Shown: one piece after another, positions 21,374 through 42,626 of the stretch
Layout of the letters: each line of letters starts with the position of its first letter
Position numbering within the stretch: the stretch's first letter is position 1
DNA from: Sulfurospirillum sp. UBA12182
Lineage (GTDB): Bacteria; Campylobacterota; Campylobacteria; Campylobacterales; Sulfurospirillaceae
Assembly (NCBI GenBank): GCA_002742765.1
Contig: DLUF01000042.1
Coordinates: forward strand, 104,761-168,760
DNA length: 64,000 nucleotides
Reading direction: 5' to 3'
The notes under the pieces: generated by a model
Told to the model about the DNA's origin: nothing
The model's input: the letters and a program-made list of their open reading frames with translations, nothing else
Database searches by the model: none
Made by a program: the position numbers and the translations under genes

Positions 21374-22260
21374 TGTATAGCTTCCTTTATTATTAGTTTA
21401 ATCCCATCTTCTATGGAAATTTTTGGTTTCCAACCTAAATCAAACAAAGGCTTAACATCTTCTTCAATTTCCATAAACTCACCTTCTCTATAAGCTTTAG
21501 CACCAAAATTTAGTTTTGTACTAATTGGTTTTATTTTTGAAATCTCTTTGTAGATTTTCAATATAAACTCTTTGAGTTCTATTTGATCGCCTGTTCCAAC
21601 ATCAAATTCGCTAAATGCTTGAAAAATCTTCGACTTTTCAAGCATTAATAAATAAACATCTACAACATCATCAATATAAATAAAATCTCTTTTTTGAATA
21701 CCCTCTGTTAAATCAACAGACTCTACATTTTGAAGCATCTGATTTGTAATCCATGTTACAAATTTTGTATTATCATCTTTTGGACCATACATATGTTCTA
21801 GTTTTAAATTTACTACTTTTATCCTATCACTAAAATATTTCAACCACTCTACAAACTGCTTTTTTGAAAGTGAGTAGTGGTTTAAATACTTATAAAGAAG
21901 TGTGTCCGTGTTGAAAAATGTGTCCGTGTTGAAAAATGTGTCCGTGTTGAAAAATGTAGCTGTCTCCATAAGTTTTAGTGAAAACATCAAATTTGTATCA
22001 ACTATATTTGATATACTTGAATTATTTCGTCCATAGTTTGTAACCGTATGTATTACAGCATCTATTTTTTGATCTTCAAAAGGTTTTTCTATGGCAACTT
22101 TGTCTATATCATAGCTTTTTACTTTTGATAATACTGAATCTATTCTCCAGATATTTGAAGTACTTCTTTTTAAAATAACTACTTCATACTTCAACTCTAA
22201 TAATCTATGAAGAAGATGACTTCCTAAAAATCCTGTTGCACCTGTAAGTAAAATAGTCAT
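21370..22260 (-). CDS. CDP-paratose/abequose synthase-like reductase (SDR) with three copies of an FFNTDT repeat
   Basis: LLTGATGFLGSHLLHRL; YSLSKKQF catalytic motif; FFNTDTFFNTDTFFNTDT. Confidence 0.75.
   Translation of the reverse strand: MTILLTGATGFLGSHLLHRLLELKYEVVILKRSTSNIWRIDSVLSKVKSYDIDKVAIEKPFEDQKIDAVIHTVTNYGRNNSSISNIVDTNLMFSLKLMETATFFNTDTFFNTDTFFNTDTLLYKYLNHYSLSKKQFVEWLKYFSDRIKVVNLKLEHMYGPKDDNTKFVTWITNQMLQNVESVDLTEGIQKRDFIYIDDVVDVYLLMLEKSKIFQAFSEFDVGTGDQIELKEFILKIYKEISKIKPISTKLNFGAKAYREGEFMEIEEDVKPLFDLGWKPKISIEDGIKLIIKEAIQ
21901..21954. repeat. 3 x 18-bp perfect tandem repeat (TGTGTCCGTGTTGAAAAA)
   Basis: Read directly; three identical units; in-frame within the reductase CDS. Confidence 0.98.
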
Positions 22261-23376: not shown

Positions 23377-24134
23377 GGAGCTTTACCACTATCCCAAAGT
23401 TTATTTAAATCATTTTTGTCTTTTAAACTGTCCATCGGTTTCCAAAAACCTTCATGTTTAAAAGTAAATATCTCACCATCTCTAGCTAAATTCATTAAAG
23501 GAGCTTGTTCAAATATCGTACTATCACCCTCAGTTATATAATCAAATACTTTAGGCTCACATACAAAAAATCCTGCATTAATCCAGTTACCATCACCTTT
23601 TGGTTTCTCTTTAAATTCATGCACTTGATTATTCTCATCAATGTTTAAAGCACCAAATCTTCCCTCTGGCTGAGCAGAAGTCATAGTCATAGCTTTTCCA
23701 TGAGATTTATGGAATTTTACTAATTCATCTATATTTATATCTGAAACTCCATCTCCGTAAGTTAGCATAAAAGATTCATTACCTACAACCTCTTGTGCTC
23801 TTTTTACTCTTCCACCAGTCATTGTATCTAAACCTGTATCTAAAAGAGTTATTTTCCATGGTTCACTTGAGTTATTTAATACTTCCATTTCCCCTGTTTG
23901 CATATCTATTGTTACATCACTCTGATGTAGAAAATAATTTGCAAAATATTCTTTAATATAGTAACCTTTATAACCAAGAAGTACAACAAATTCATTAAAA
24001 CCGTACTTTGAATATATTTTCATTATATGCCAAAGTATTGGTTTTCCACCAATTTCTACCATTGGTTTTGGTCTTATATCTGTCTCTTCAGAAAGTCTTG
24101 TTCCAAAGCCACCTGCTAATAATAATACTTTCAT
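23361..24134 (-). CDS. rfbF: Glucose-1-phosphate cytidylyltransferase
   Basis: [36 protein letters not shown]. Confidence 0.94.
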
Positions 24135-25192
24135 TTATTTTCTCCTTTTGTTAAATACCACTCATACATAGTTCTAATTCCATCTTCAAGCTCAACCTTG
24201 TGCTTCCACCCAAGACTATGAAGTTTACCTGAGTCTGTTAGCTTAACCATTGTACCATCTGGTTTATCTGTATTAAACATAAGACTACCTTTAAAACCTA
24301 CGATGTTTTGTATAAGCTCTGCTAACTCTTTTATGCTGATGTCGATTCCAGTTCCTATGTTTATATGCGTATTTTTTATCTCTTTACATGTAGCGTTATA
24401 AGAATCTTTAAAATCCCTATTTTCCAGCAAAAAAACACAAGCATCTGCCATATCTTCAGAGTATAAAAACTCACGTCTAGGCTTTCCACTGCCCCAGATC
24501 TCAACACTATTTTCACTTACTCCAAATTTAGCAAGGTATGATTTTGCCTCTTCTAAGTTTTTCACATGTAAATCTTGTATAACTTCTTCATATCTTTTTT
24601 CATTTAAAAGCTTTGCTAAGTGTATCTTTCTTATGAGTGCTGGTAAAACATGTGATGTTTGAAGGTCAAAGTTATCACCTAACCCATATAAATTCGTAGG
24701 CATTACAGAGATAAAGTTTGTGCCATATTGTAAATTATAGCTTTCACACATCTTAATTCCTGCTATCTTTGCTATAGCATATGGTTCATTTGTATATTCT
24801 AGTTCACTTGTAAGCAAATACTCTTCTTTCAACGGTTGTGGTGCATTTTTTGGATATATACATGTACTACCTAAAAAAAGAAGCTTTTTAACTTTATTCA
24901 CGTAACTTTGGTGTATAACATTATTTTGAATTTGTAAATTTTCATAGATAAAATCTGCTCTATAAGTGTTATTAGCAACTATACCCCCTACCTTTGCAGC
25001 TGCTAAGATAACATACTCAGGTTTTTCTGACTCAAAAAACTCTGCTACTGCTTGTTGATTGGTTAAATCAAGTTCACTGTGTGTTCTATACACTAAATTT
25101 GCATAACCTTTACATGTAAGGTTTTTGACTATCGCAGAACCTACAAGACCTCTATGCCCTGCAACATAAATTTTAGAACTTTTTTGCATCAT
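24131..25192 (-). CDS. fcl: GDP-L-fucose synthase
   Basis: [39 protein letters not shown]. Confidence 0.93.
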
Positions 25193-25193
25193 T

Positions 25194-27302
25194 TTACTCG
25201 AAATAACTCATGATTTTATAGCCACCCTCTTTGAGGTAAACGTCTTTTTGCATAAGTTTCAAATCATTTTTCATCATGTCATCTACAAGATTTTGAAGGT
25301 TAAATTCTCTTTTCCAACCAAGTTTTTGCTCTGCTTTTGTTGGATCACCTAAAAGAAGATCAACTTCGGTAGGTCTAAAGTATCTAGGATCAACAGCAAC
25401 TACAACCTTGCCAATTTCAACTTGATAACTAGGATTGTGGCAGGCTTTGATAATGCCAACTTCATCCACACCAGTTCCTATAAACTCAAGTTCTATCCCA
25501 CAGTAATTAAATGCCATACGCACAAAATCACGCACCATAGTAGTTTGTCCAGTTGCTATAACCCAGTCTTCTGGTTCTTCTGCTTGCAAAATCATCCACA
25601 TCATTTTACAATTTCCAGATACAAAAATAGTATCATTTCTTTTTGTAATAATAGTTTTATTCTTTGTTGTTTCAACACACCAAAGATTTTCTTTTGATTC
25701 TTCTTTAAGAATATCTGTCACAAAATTATTAATACTCTTTTTTGCCAAAGAAAATATTTGCAATATATAAACTCCTGATTTTCGTTTAGATAACTTGCTT
25801 CTATATCCTATTAAAGAGACGATATTCATAAAATCATCAATTAACTCTTTTCTTTTTGATACATATTGAAGTTTAGACCAACAACCATCAGCATTCATCA
25901 TGGCTTCAAATAGAATATTTAACTGCCTTTTAGAAAACTTATATATAAATTTAGGCAAACGATGAATATCAAAATCGTCAAAATATTCTAAAATCTCATC
26001 TTGACTTTTGGCAGAAAAAATAAACTCAACAACTTCATCTTCTCGTTTTTTTTCTCTGTATTCTAAATTTAAATTATCGATAATATTTTTTAACTCTTTA
26101 TAATATTTTTTTTGTGATTGACTAACACTTAGAGTTGAACCTCTGCCTATCTCTTTTGATAAAGATAAATTGCCTTCAGTTACAACATATCCTAAAAGTC
26201 TAATATAATCATCTCCAATATCATAAGCATTTTCATTTTCTTCTAATCCTACAAATCCTGGAAAACAAAAATCGTATTTTGTTCTTAGTTCTTTATCCTC
26301 ATAAATCTCATAAATCTCTTTTGCTGTTGTTTCAATCCAACTATAATCACTCCATGATTTATGCTGTTTAGTTTTCCTTTTGTAAAAAATTCTATGATTT
26401 TCTGAACACCTAAAATGTAATCCATTTCCAATAAAACTGTACATATTACCACTATATTCAACATCATATATTTTTTCAATAGTGTCATACTCCCAAGAAT
26501 TATTTTCTTGATTGAAATTTATTAAAGTATCACTTAACGTCAAATCTTCTCTTTTTTTAAACCCCTCTATGGTCAATATTTGACTATCTAAATCAATACA
26601 ATAATCTTTTGCATGGCCCCAATCACGCTTGGCATCGAGGTTACCAAGGTAGAGTTTATCTTGTAATCCTAATGCTATCTTCGCCGCTGCTCTTGTAATC
26701 TTACGAGTTACAAAAGTTTCACCTCGCACAGGTGATTCATGATTAAAAAGGATTCCATTACATGCAAACATACCATAAGCTTCACGGTAATTAACAGTTA
26801 TCCAATACGCATACATCTTAGCAACTGCATATGGGCTTCTTGGATAAAATGGTGTTGTCTCCTTTTGTGGAGTTTCTTGTACTTTTCCATAAAGTTCACT
26901 TGTACTTGCTTGGTATATCTTTGTTTTTTTCTCCAACCCCAAAAGCCGTACAGCTTCTAAAATCCTTAAAGTGCCAGTACCATCTGCATTTGCAACATAT
27001 TCTGGTGTTTCAAAACTTACATGTACATGACTCATAGCTGCTAGATTGTATATCTCATCTGGTTGGCACTCGGCGATGATACGAGTAAGATTCATAGAAT
27101 CTGTCATATCTCCATAATGAAGAATTAAGTTTCTATCTTCTACATGGGGGTCTTGATATAAGTGATCTATACGATCTGTGTTAAAAAGTGAACTTCTTCT
27201 TTTAATCCCGTGTACTATATAACCTTTTTTGAGCAAAAACTCCGCTAGATAGCTTCCATCTTGTCCTGTAATCCCTGTTATCAATGCTACTTTCTTTTTC
27301 AT
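25194..27302 (-). CDS. gmd: GDP-mannose 4,6-dehydratase precursor containing an intein
   Basis: Extein halves [28 protein letters not shown]...[10 protein letters not shown] and [30 protein letters not shown] are Gmd; 330-aa intein between. Confidence 0.93.
25611..26600 (-). other. Intein with LAGLIDADG-type endonuclease motifs (330 aa) in gmd
   Basis: Cys1 ([14 protein letters not shown]), block [28 protein letters not shown] and [11 protein letters not shown] motifs, C-terminal ...[18 protein letters not shown]. Confidence 0.92.
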
Positions 27303-27309
27303 TTATATA

Positions 27310-28638
27310 TCATTCCTTTCTATCAAAATCATCTTCTAATCTTTCTATATCATCTTCACCAGTATAGCTTCCTACTTGAGCTTCTATGATAACTAAAAGT
27401 TCCTCAGTATTATTTGAAAGTCTGTGTATATCTCCTGCTTTGATATATGTTGATTCATTTTGATTAAGAACAAACGTATTGGTTTCTATCGTAACAGTTG
27501 CTTGTCCACTAACTACTATCCAATGCTCATTTCTATATTTATGCCTTTGCAAAGAGAGTCTTTTTCTTGGTTTTACTTCAATTCTCTTAATCTTATATCC
27601 ATCTTGTTCTTCCAAGATAGTAAAAGTACCCCATGGTCTATATCCAGTGAGATGTGTATCTGTTAATGTTGATTTTTCTTTTTTTAATGTAGTAACAATC
27701 TCTTTTATCTTCTGAGTTGAACCTTTTTTAGAGACAAGCAAAACATCGTTAGTATCAACTATGATACTATCTTTTATATCTATCGTATGTACTGGTTTTT
27801 CTGATATTATCAAGTTATTATTTGCGTCATTTGGCAACTCTTCACAAAGAGCATCAAAACTTCCAACATCAGACCAGCTGATGTCACTTGCTACGACTTT
27901 AACTCGATTTGATTTTTCCATCACAGCATAATCTATGCTATCTATTGGAATATTTAGCATATCTTCATAAACAATTCTTATCATATTATCTTGCTTTGCA
28001 TTTTTATATGCTTCCAATGACTTGTCATATATTTGTGGCGAATATTTTTTTAGCTCTTCTAAAAAAACACCAACTTTAAAACAAAACATTCCACTATTCC
28101 AGTAGTAGTTCCCAGCATTTAGATATTCTGTAGCTTTTTCAACATTTGGTTTTTCATGAAAAGCTTTTACATTTTCTCCATCTGATTCTATATATCCAAA
28201 ACCAATCTCTGCAAATGTTGGTTTAATCCCAAAAGTGACAAGATAATTCTCTGATGCCAACTCTTGTGCTCGCTTCACCACTTTCTTATAAGAGTCTTCA
28301 TCTTTAATAAGATGATCACTTGGTGTTACCAATACCATTTCGTTCTTGTCGAGGAACAAACAAGCTAGGGCAATAGCTGGAGCAGTGTTTCTTCCTATGG
28401 GTTCTAGCAAATATCTACTGTTTATCACATCTAACTCTTCTAATTGATCCTTAGCTAAAAAATATTGTTCTGCATTAGATACTATAAGGTGCGAACTACA
28501 GATTTTTGAATTTCTTTCTACAGTAAATTGAAACAGAGACTTATTTGAAAAAAGTTTGATAAATTGTTTTGGCATTAGAGTTCTGCTCATAGGCCATAGT
28601 CTTGTTCCATTGCCTCCACATAATATAATATTAGTCAT
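27310..28638 (-). CDS. manC: Bifunctional mannose-1-phosphate guanylyltransferase/mannose-6-phosphate isomerase
   Basis: ILCGGNGTRLWPMSRTLMPKQF; GYRPWGTF; cupin-like C-terminus YRNEHWIVVSGQATVTI. Confidence 0.94.
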   Translation of the reverse strand: MTNIILCGGNGTRLWPMSRTLMPKQFIKLFSNKSLFQFTVERNSKICSSHLIVSNAEQYFLAKDQLEELDVINSRYLLEPIGRNTAPAIALACLFLDKNEMVLVTPSDHLIKDEDSYKKVVKRAQELASENYLVTFGIKPTFAEIGFGYIESDGENVKAFHEKPNVEKATEYLNAGNYYWNSGMFCFKVGVFLEELKKYSPQIYDKSLEAYKNAKQDNMIRIVYEDMLNIPIDSIDYAVMEKSNRVKVVASDISWSDVGSFDALCEELPNDANNNLIISEKPVHTIDIKDSIIVDTNDVLLVSKKGSTQKIKEIVTTLKKEKSTLTDTHLTGYRPWGTFTILEEQDGYKIKRIEVKPRKRLSLQRHKYRNEHWIVVSGQATVTIETNTFVLNQNESTYIKAGDIHRLSNNTEELLVIIEAQVGSYTGEDDIERLEDDFDRKE

Positions 28639-30781: not shown

Positions 30782-31522
30782 TTAAGCTGATAAAATCTGA
30801 TTCTTATTATGCCTTTTTAAAAATTCTACTGGACTTAAATTATCCAATGCCTCATGTGGTCTATGATAGTTATAATCAAACATCCACTCTTCAACCTTTT
30901 CTCTGACTTCTGAAAGAGAAGTAAAAATATGACAATCTAAAAGTTCTCTTCTCATAGAGCCATTAAATCTTTCAACTCTTGCATTTTCTGTTGGTTTGCC
31001 TGGTCTAATAAAATCTAGCATAATATTGTGCTTGTTGCACCATAGCTCTAAATGGGTTGAAATGAACTCTGGTCCATTATCTACTCTGATTGTATTTGGA
31101 TAGCCTCTATATTCACAAACTTGCTCCAACGCTTCTATAACTCTTCTTGCTGGAAGTGATGTATCGACTTTTACATGTAAGAGTTCTCTATTAAATTCAT
31201 CTATGATATTTAATAGCCTATATCGTTTTCCATACCATAGAGTGTCACTCATAAAGTCCATTGCCCATATTTCATTTTGACATTGCAATTCACTTAGTGG
31301 TGTTTGAACACGCATTGGCAATCTTTTTTTCATTTTTCTTCTTATATTCAAACCTAATTTTTTATAAATTCTATACACTCTCTTATGATTCCACGCATAT
31401 CCAGCACTTCTGATACGAAGATAGAGTTTTTTAAATCCATTACGAGGATGTTTTTGAACCAAATGATTTAAAACTGCAACAAGTTCTGCATCATTGTCTC
31501 TTTTTTGAGATTTATAATACAT
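30782..31522 (-). CDS. IS3-family transposase OrfB (DDE integrase core); true ORF extends upstream to about 31627 by frameshift
   Basis: WAMDFMSDTL, IRVDNGPEF, PGKPTENARVERFNG, HRPHEAL. Confidence 0.95.
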   Translation of the reverse strand: MYYKSQKRDNDAELVAVLNHLVQKHPRNGFKKLYLRIRSAGYAWNHKRVYRIYKKLGLNIRRKMKKRLPMRVQTPLSELQCQNEIWAMDFMSDTLWYGKRYRLLNIIDEFNRELLHVKVDTSLPARRVIEALEQVCEYRGYPNTIRVDNGPEFISTHLELWCNKHNIMLDFIRPGKPTENARVERFNGSMRRELLDCHIFTSLSEVREKVEEWMFDYNYHRPHEALDNLSPVEFLKRHNKNQILSA

Positions 31523-31620: not shown

Positions 31621-31923
31621 TTAAAGCTTTTTTTCTATTAAATCTTTGAGTGCATGATTTTCAAGTGCCATATCAGCGTACATCTTTTTTAACTTTGAAT
31701 TCTCTTCTTCTAACTCTTTGAGACGCTTGATATCTGAAACACTCATACCACCATATTTACTCTTCCAAACATAATATGTCTGTTGTGTTATCCCATGCTT
31801 TCGACATACATCTACTACTTTTAACCCTGCCTCTACCTCATTCAAAATCCCAACAATTTGGGTTTCGCTAAATTTACTCTTTTTCATCATAACTCCTGAT
31901 ATTATTTTATCAGAAATTATCAA
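31621..31923 (-). CDS. IS3-family transposase OrfA (HTH)
   Basis: KKSKFSETQIVGILNEVEAGLKVVDVCRKHGITQQTYYVWKSKYGGM. Confidence 0.95.
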   Translation of the reverse strand: MIISDKIISGVMMKKSKFSETQIVGILNEVEAGLKVVDVCRKHGITQQTYYVWKSKYGGMSVSDIKRLKELEEENSKLKKMYADMALENHALKDLIEKKL

Positions 31924-31957
31924 CTTATGCGTGGTCTAGTTTTTGGGGATGGGTACA

Positions 31958-32540
31958 ATAGAACTATCTAATGAAGCTAAGATAATTTCTTTTTTATCAG
32001 GATAGTTTAAAATCCCTTGTAATATTAAAATTTCAGTGATGTCAATCATCTGATTTTGAAGGGTATTAGGTGTTTTCAAGGAAACTCCTAAAGTCGTTTT
32101 GATGTACTTTGGGTGTAAATTAATAAGATGTGATGCATAACCCTTGAACTCTTCTGCCATTACAGGCTTTAATGTAGAAAGAAATTCCTCTATTTTTACT
32201 AGTATTTTTTGCTTTTCTTCGGGTCTATTTATATCAAATCTATAGTTTCCTAAATTATCCTTAACAATATAATCTAATGCAAATTCTACAAAGTACTTTG
32301 GGTGTAAAAGTAAGGACTTTAATTCATTTACCCTACCCTCTTTTACATAATCAGCAGGATCTTGTCCATTTTGAAAAATAACAACTCCACCAACGAAGTC
32401 ATTTTGTGCTAAAAAAATTGAAGCTTTATAAGCAGCTTCCATACCAGCTTTATCTCCATCATAACCCAATATTATTTTTGCATCTGATTTTTTTAAAAGT
32501 GGTATGTGTTGAGATGTAAGTGCGGTTCCAAGCTTGAACA
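31958..32540 (-). pseudogene. dnaG': dnaG fragment (TOPRIM domain onward), 5'-truncated and IS-interrupted
   Basis: LGTALTSQHIPLLKKSDAKIILGYDGDKAGMEAAYKAS TOPRIM signature; N-terminal zinc-binding region absent. Confidence 0.85.
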
Positions 32541-32605
32541 AGAGGTGCCATTTTAATTGCTTCTGGACGTGTACCAAATATCAATAATACTTTTTGCAAA
32601 ATCAT
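32530..32605 (-). pseudogene. wecB': 5' stub of wecB (UDP-GlcNAc 2-epimerase), about 23-25 codons
   Basis: Minus-strand translation MILQKVLLIFGTRPEAIKMAPLVQAW, then reads into dnaG sequence. Confidence 0.85.
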
Positions 32606-41757: not shown

Positions 41758-42626
41758 ATGAAAGAAAGAGTCGAATGCTATCTTGTAAAATTTTTTATCT
41801 ATTTTCTAGGATTACTCCCTAAAACAGTGATTTATAAATTTACTCACTTTTTAGCAATGACTTTTTTTAAATTTGAAAAAAGAAGAAGTTCTTTAACATT
41901 AAAAAACTTGGCTCTTGCATTTCCTGATAAATCAGAACAAGAGATATATGAACTAGCAAAAAAAACTTACACGAGTCTTTCTATTAGTATTGCTGAAATT
42001 ATTATGATGTTCAATGATAGAATCGATATTGAACAAATGATTGAGAACAAAGAAGAGAGTTTGGCAACACTTCGAACGTTGATTCAAAACAATCAAAACG
42101 GAACTATTTTTATAACTGCTCATTTTCAAACTGGGAACTTTTGGCACAATTTTTGCCAAAAAATGGATTTCCTATGACAGTGATAGGAAGAGAGGGAAAT
42201 AACAAATTGATTGAAGTAAATTTTACAACACCTTTTAGAGAAAAATTTGGTAATGAAAACATTTATAAAAGAAATTCTCTTATTAAACTTATTAAGCTTC
42301 TCAAACAAAACAAAAATGTTGGTTTTTTAATCGATCAAAAAGCAGGAGGAACTGCTAGTTTCAAAGCACGATTTTTCAACCATCCAGCAGACACAACTAC
42401 ATCTGTCGCACTGTTAGTACTTAAATATAATCCTTTAGTTATTCCTATTTTTATGCCTAGACTTAAAAATGGCAAATATCACTTAAAAATTATAGAAACT
42501 TCACAAGATGAAACAGCTACAATCGAATCACTTACCCAAAAATACAATGACATCCTAGAAGAAGTTATCAAAGAGTACCCAGAACAATGGTTTTGGATGC
42601 ATAATCGGTGGAGACTTCCTAAGTGA
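41758..42626 (+). pseudogene. LpxL/HtrB-like lipid A acyltransferase split by a frameshift
   Basis: ORFs 41758..42177 and 42141..42626 are the two halves; frame switch at CATTTTCAAACTGGGAA within the HX4E motif. Confidence 0.85.

Follow-up and report, generated by a model that had tools for sequence, protein, structure and literature searches.

A predicted intein with a LAGLIDADG endonuclease in the GDP-mannose 4,6-dehydratase of Sulfurospirillum, with same-site relatives in viral gmd genes

The GDP-mannose 4,6-dehydratase gene (gmd) of Sulfurospirillum sp. UBA12182 is interrupted by an insert that we read as a complete intein of class 1 type in which a LAGLIDADG homing endonuclease is nested, predicted to splice and to home, and with phage gmd as its likely reservoir. 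We give this explanation as a whole a probability of about 93%. The gene lies in a window of 64,000 nucleotides (the whole stretch of DNA that was analysed), to which all coordinates refer unless another contig is named. A genome-wide search found no second gmd elsewhere in the genome, and the interrupted copy is its sole gmd.

The interrupted gene and its insertion site

The gmd ORF encodes a precursor of 702 aa, free of internal stops. A sequence-only reading of the window had recognised Gmd at both ends of this ORF, and two comparisons agree with it: residues 4-235 and 566-698 align with the Gmd of Escherichia coli (1db3; 413 and 134 bits with phmmer, one match for each half), and the NCBIfam profile TIGR01472 (gmd) matches the ORF in two stretches (E 1.4e-174). 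The 330-residue insert that it had placed between RDWGHAKDY and CKMMWMILQ was recovered with the same boundaries, residues 235-564 corresponding exactly to 25611-26600 and being non-Gmd sequence. Removal of the insert leaves the 372 aa that had been predicted, the normal length of a Gmd. The insert starts with a Cys and ends in SGN, and is followed by a second Cys. The features, all on the minus strand, are as follows.

27310-28638, minus: manC-like mannose-1-phosphate guanylyltransferase, upstream neighbour (ORF; name from sequence inspection)
25194-27302, minus: gmd ORF, comprising N-extein, intein and C-extein (ORF reading, TIGR01472, 1db3 alignment)
26601-27302, minus: N-extein, Gmd residues 1-234, ending in RDWGHAKDY (alignment to E. 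coli Gmd 1db3)
25611-26600, minus: intein of 330 aa, from C1 to GN330 (PF14528, alignment of seven inteins, profile, fold)
26562-26600, minus: block A with the Cys1 nucleophile, codon 26598-26600 (C1, L9, T10 and G13 invariant in seven divergent inteins)
26388-26429, minus: block B with intein His69, and Ser66 replacing Thr (H69 invariant)
26172-26201, minus: first LAGLIDADG helix, LLGYVVTEG, with acidic Glu142 (PF14528; G137 and G143 invariant)
25884-25913, minus: second LAGLIDADG helix, with Asp238 (D238 and G239 invariant)
25647-25688, minus: block F, Cys308 at the F4 position, without the block-F His (C308 invariant in the seven-intein alignment, C or D in another comparison)
25611-25634, minus: block G, DTIFVSGN, with penultimate Gly329 and terminal Asn330, codon 25611-25613 (G329 and N330 invariant in the seven-intein alignment)
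25608-25610, minus: Cys+1 codon TGT, first residue of the C-extein (Val or Ile in 64 intein-free Campylobacterota Gmds)
25194-25610, minus: C-extein, from CKMMWMILQ to the stop (alignment to 1db3)
24131-25192, minus: fcl/wcaG-like GDP-fucose synthase, downstream neighbour (ORF; name from sequence inspection)

The insertion falls directly after RDWGHAKDY, in the conserved DWGHAKDYV motif. Among 64 intein-free Gmds of Campylobacterota, the ten residues preceding the site show a mean conservation of 99%, which places them at the 99.7th percentile of all ten-residue segments of the protein. The usual Val was said to be replaced by Cys at the +1 position, and this holds: the 64 proteins have Val (63) or Ile (1), encoded by GTN or ATC, which differ from TGT by two or more changes. 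Bacterial intein-like (BIL) domains sit in variable, non-conserved regions of proteins (PMC5874633), and we rejected this class for the insert given the conservation of its site.

Three other loci of the window deserve mention. A C-terminal fragment of DnaG (Toprim) is encoded at 31936-32577 (minus strand) within the polysaccharide cluster, beside IS3-type transposase ORFs (30782-31522 and 31621-31923), and a longer dnaG frame (548 aa) is found elsewhere in the genome. A perfect 18-bp tandem repeat (21901-21957, 3.2 copies) lies in frame in a sugar epimerase ORF, where it encodes repeated FFNTDT and might vary in copy number. A lipid A acyltransferase (PF03279) is split on the plus strand, the halves of the family matching adjacent overlapping ORFs (41758-42177 and 42141-42626).

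Identity of the insert and predicted splicing

The elements listed by the sequence-only reading (Cys1, a block-B-like motif, two LAGLIDADG-like motifs, a C-terminal motif and Cys+1) are all present, with some peculiarities. Block B is S-E-N-H, not T-x-x-H; its His is invariant and the Thr is found in most relatives. The penultimate residue is Gly329, not His, and this Gly is conserved across the intein family. The block-F His is absent. A penultimate His is typical of inteins without being obligatory, and the combination of a penultimate Gly with a missing block-F His is unusual among bacterial inteins, though it is the norm within the present family. The LAGLIDADG_3 profile (PF14528) matches the insert in two stretches (E 2.7e-7, Pfam), with E142 and D238 as the acidic residues. 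The general Pfam intein model (PF14890) matched neither the window intein nor anything else in its genome, because this intein family is too diverged from the model; the homologous intein of a Nautiliaceae genome, described below, reaches 27 bits (E 4e-6), under the cut-off of 35.8.

Searches with tblastn found long relatives of the insert in phage genes and some plasmids, at 20-26% identity. We read the ORFs of five of them: a nucleotidyltransferase of a Pectobacterium phage, a hypothetical protein of an Aeromonas phage, a gp55-like protein of a Synechococcus phage, a radical SAM protein of an archaeal plasmid, and a gene of a Prevotella Lak phage. All five inserts start with Cys and end in Gly-Asn, and the next residue is Cys, Ser or Thr. 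In the alignment of these five (22-25% identity) with the two bacterial Gmd inteins, 14 columns are invariant (C1, L9, T10, G13, H69, G137, G143, L230, D238, G239, G265, C308, G329, N330), and they include the block-A nucleophile, the block-B His, positions in both LAGLIDADG motifs, the Cys of block F and the Gly-Asn at the C-terminus. The phage inteins (Pectobacterium DU_PP_I, Prevotella Lak, Synechococcus B23, Aeromonas AhC3_1) are thus of the same family as the window intein, with the same blocks, GN ending and LAGLIDADG endonuclease, but they differ at 22-25% identity and in their hosts, which are genes of phage biology (nucleotidyltransferase, gp55-like) instead of a bacterial sugar enzyme. 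A further relative, gp53 of mycobacteriophage Switzer, annotated as a recombination directionality factor (RDF), aligns over residues 1-330 (E 6e-13, 22% identity) and ends in TGN. It shares with the window intein end-to-end homology, Cys1, the block-F WC, the penultimate Gly and the terminal Asn, and differs by its host (a metallophosphoesterase-like RDF), a Ser+1 and a diverged endonuclease.

The profile of the seven inteins matched solved structures of inteins: AceL NrdHF-1 (3e-11), PI-PkoII (6e-10), the Spl DnaX mini-intein (2e-5) and MJ0781 (2jmz; 4e-4). Among the solved inteins, AceL NrdHF-1 (PDB 6zgq) is the closest in sequence over the N-terminal splicing region, but its chain has 165 residues, leaves the endonuclease region unmatched and comes from another host gene. 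An AlphaFold2 model of the intein built from 11 sequences, a shallow alignment, has a pLDDT of 81 and a pTM of 0.78, and superseded a single-sequence model with a pLDDT of 42. In a Foldseek search of the PDB with this model, the top 15 hits were inteins with endonucleases (best E 1e-12), followed by the endonuclease I-DmoI. TliVMA, PI-PfuI, PI-SceI and PI-PkoII have the same two-domain fold as the model (TM to the query 0.54-0.70), but only 10-12% identity and other host genes. The identification of the insert as an intein is therefore borne out by homologous phage inteins, by matches of the family profile to solved inteins, by the comparison of folds and by empty sites in 64 relatives; the search of residues 235-564 against intein profiles gave the LAGLIDADG_3 match and reached solved inteins with the family profile, PF14890 being without a match.

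We used the definitions of class 1 and class 3 inteins of PMC5050341. The window intein is an in-frame insert at a conserved site, has intact homologous exteins, insert-free alleles and a predicted Hint fold, and carries Cys1, the block-B His, Asn330 and Cys+1; the penultimate His is the class 1 feature that it lacks. It has Cys1, its block-B stretch lacks Trp, and it is therefore of class 1, not class 3. Class 3 was rejected, the block-F Cys alone being shared with the WCT triplet.

Could the insert be a stable domain, retained in a functional Gmd? It is in frame and open in all carriers, as such a domain would be. Yet it interrupts a stretch of Gmd that is among the most conserved, it has the ends and the fold of an intein, and it is absent from nearly all relatives: close relatives are uninterrupted, and the only relatives with an insert keep all splicing residues. 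This makes a stable domain very improbable. An assembly artefact fusing two genes is still much less credible, to the point of being negligible: all bacterial carriers of the gmd intein are metagenome-assembled genomes (MAGs), but the same junctions are seen in three MAGs separately and again in several viral contigs, and the insert is a single open frame.

In the mechanism that we propose for the intein, the Hint domain would excise it after translation. An acyl shift at Cys1 would be followed by transfer to Cys+1 and by cyclisation of Asn330, preceded by Gly instead of His, and the ligated exteins would form a Gmd of 372 aa with Cys replacing Val after DWGHAKDY. Splicing has a good precedent: the mycobacteriophage RDF intein with a penultimate Gly (tested in Bethlehem gp51) splices completely, and its Gly-to-His variant splices more slowly (PMC5050341). 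We infer splicing of the window intein from this related element. The insert might instead be a decayed intein, incapable of splicing or reduced to cleavage, with Gmd activity lost or weak in the organism. The missing penultimate His and block-F His would fit such decay, but the rest of the splicing residues are intact and are kept in relatives as distant as 22% identity, the related Gly-penultimate intein splices to completion (PMC5050341), and the ORF is unbroken in three MAGs (this genome, a UBA6810 MAG of the same genus, L001, and the Nautiliaceae MAG). L001 carries the same intein allele with one amino-acid difference, and all 16 differences between the extein sense codons of the two MAGs are synonymous. 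Hence, Gmd appears to be under selection as a working enzyme, and decay is improbable.

Distribution in Campylobacterota and in viral contigs

We found a gmd match above the family cut-off in 206 of the 397 Campylobacterota genomes. Only two of the 397 have an intein at this site, the genome studied here and one Nautiliaceae MAG, and Cys at +1 occurs only in these two intein alleles. The two inteins are 64.6% identical and the exteins 69.8%. The host genes of the carriers are not a clade, the Nautiliaceae gmd grouping with intein-free relatives, and a tree constrained to unite the bacterial carriers was rejected (AU p 1e-49). On this host-gene tree we rejected a transfer of the whole gene with its intein between Nautiliaceae and this genus.

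Divergence within the genus is mosaic. Between 24155-28320 of the window and L001:1-4167 there are 60 differences in 4.2 kb; they are clustered, with long identical stretches over the intein and part of fcl, and the 990-bp intein contains only one of the 60 (P 1.5e-6). This suggests recombination in the sugar cluster. Recent homing from one of these MAGs to the other was considered and set aside: given the clustering, and given that the neighbouring fcl also contains a run of 653 bp without differences, the low divergence is not intein-specific.

A genome of another Campylobacterota family (L035) encodes an unrelated intein of 341 aa at a second site of Gmd (L035:5176-7317, G054:C60). Its junctions are NHE|SVPK...KVHN|SPVRG, with Ser1, a penultimate His and Ser+1. 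Like the window intein it is hosted by Gmd and matches LAGLIDADG_3 (E 1.1e-8), but it is an unrelated allele and differs by its site, its first residue and its penultimate residue; PF14890 matches it below the cut-off. No homologue of it was found in phages or in the 397 Campylobacterota genomes. With unrelated inteins at two sites, Gmd in this phylum has, on sequence evidence, received no fewer than two distinct inteins. As a separate observation, the DnaG primase of one Campylobacterota genome (L075:868-3426, G059) is interrupted, after HCFG and before CGAGGDAV, by an insert that resembles an intein and ends in GN ahead of a Cys.

The same gmd site is occupied in viruses. Back-translated intein scans of viral contigs found nothing, and we scanned IMG/VR for DNA encoding DWGHAKDYC, obtaining 24 stretches. 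In L095, L106, L107, L110 and L113 the motif runs on into a homologous intein. The intein ends in GN|C and Gmd then resumes in L106/L107, L110 and L113; in L095 the intein is entered from Gmd at the same site and the fetched stretch ends before the second junction. L106 and L107 have an identical ORF and were counted once, which gives at least four viral carriers. Besides the gmd intein, L113 has another, different one (L113:3430-6747; PF14890 E 1.3e-14, above the cut-off) in a large ORF resembling a terminase. Another 19 viral stretches, some of which repeat one another, encode an uninterrupted Gmd with Cys at +1. The scan was selected for Cys and therefore gives no frequency of this residue. 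Among six GenBank phage Gmds that we read, Val is present in five and Ile in the sixth; hence, as far as these sequences go, Cys is one residue found at +1 in phage Gmds and not the rule. In the uninterrupted genes it could be native or the footprint of past residence of an intein.

The six Gmd inteins cluster in the intein phylogeny (92/92), with the two from bacteria as sisters (99/98); viral L095 is the next to join this pair, ahead of the remaining viral Gmd inteins (96/97). At the level of the host protein, the viral carriers share around 50% identity with bacterial Gmd and are placed outside it; between the window and L095 the inteins are 50.7% identical and the exteins 49.8%. The host-gene and intein trees of the carriers are compatible when unrooted.

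These data probably reflect movement of the element between phage and bacterial sugar genes. The endonuclease would cut uninterrupted gmd genes at this most conserved stretch, and repair would copy the intein and the Cys codon into new gmd genes. Phage gmd, with inteins at the same site and intein-free genes that already have Cys, would be the likely source of the inteins that entered bacterial gmd. The scar left by Cys+1 suggests phages as donors, a direction read from the sequences, and viral Gmds already endowed with Cys suggest an explanation for the change from Val to Cys in the bacterial carrier.

Another history would have an ancestral gmd intein, not derived from phages, lost in nearly all Campylobacterota. 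Since inteins and exteins have diverged in parallel (64.6 vs 69.8% for Nautiliaceae, 50.7 vs 49.8% for L095), and the unrooted topologies of the carriers agree, such an ancestry with many losses is possible. We regard it as rather unlikely: it needs a loss in essentially every sampled lineage, each time with reversion of Cys to Val at a cost of two or more base changes; the bacterial carriers do not form a clade in the host-gene tree; and the L095 intein, although viral, has the bacterial inteins as closer relatives than the remaining viral Gmd inteins.

A metabolic host gene for inteins

Most reports of inteins concern proteins of DNA replication and repair. That a nucleotide-sugar enzyme serves as host more than once, to unrelated inteins at two sites of the bacterial protein, one of them shared with phages, widens this picture. 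Inteins as such, LAGLIDADG endonucleases, phage inteins with a penultimate Gly and the exchange of inteins between phages and bacteria were known already (PMC5050341). In titles, abstracts and passages of the open literature, a scope that leaves most subscription papers and InBase outside, we found no report of an intein in Gmd. It is apparently as an unreported metabolic host gene that gmd joins those of inteins, with a second site and a link to phages.

The gene occurs in phages too, as a metabolic gene, and its presence in both phage and bacterium provides a homing route between the two. The Val/Cys difference at the site is a testable sequence marker of the direction of transfer. If the intein splices, all the GDP-4-keto-6-deoxymannose of the organism depends on the splicing step, because there is no other gmd in the genome. 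We tentatively speculate that gmd may be a point of exchange between phages and bacteria, with the Cys as a footprint of direction, and that conditional splicing could gate the supply of GDP-fucose and deoxysugars and, with it, the cell surface recognised by phages.
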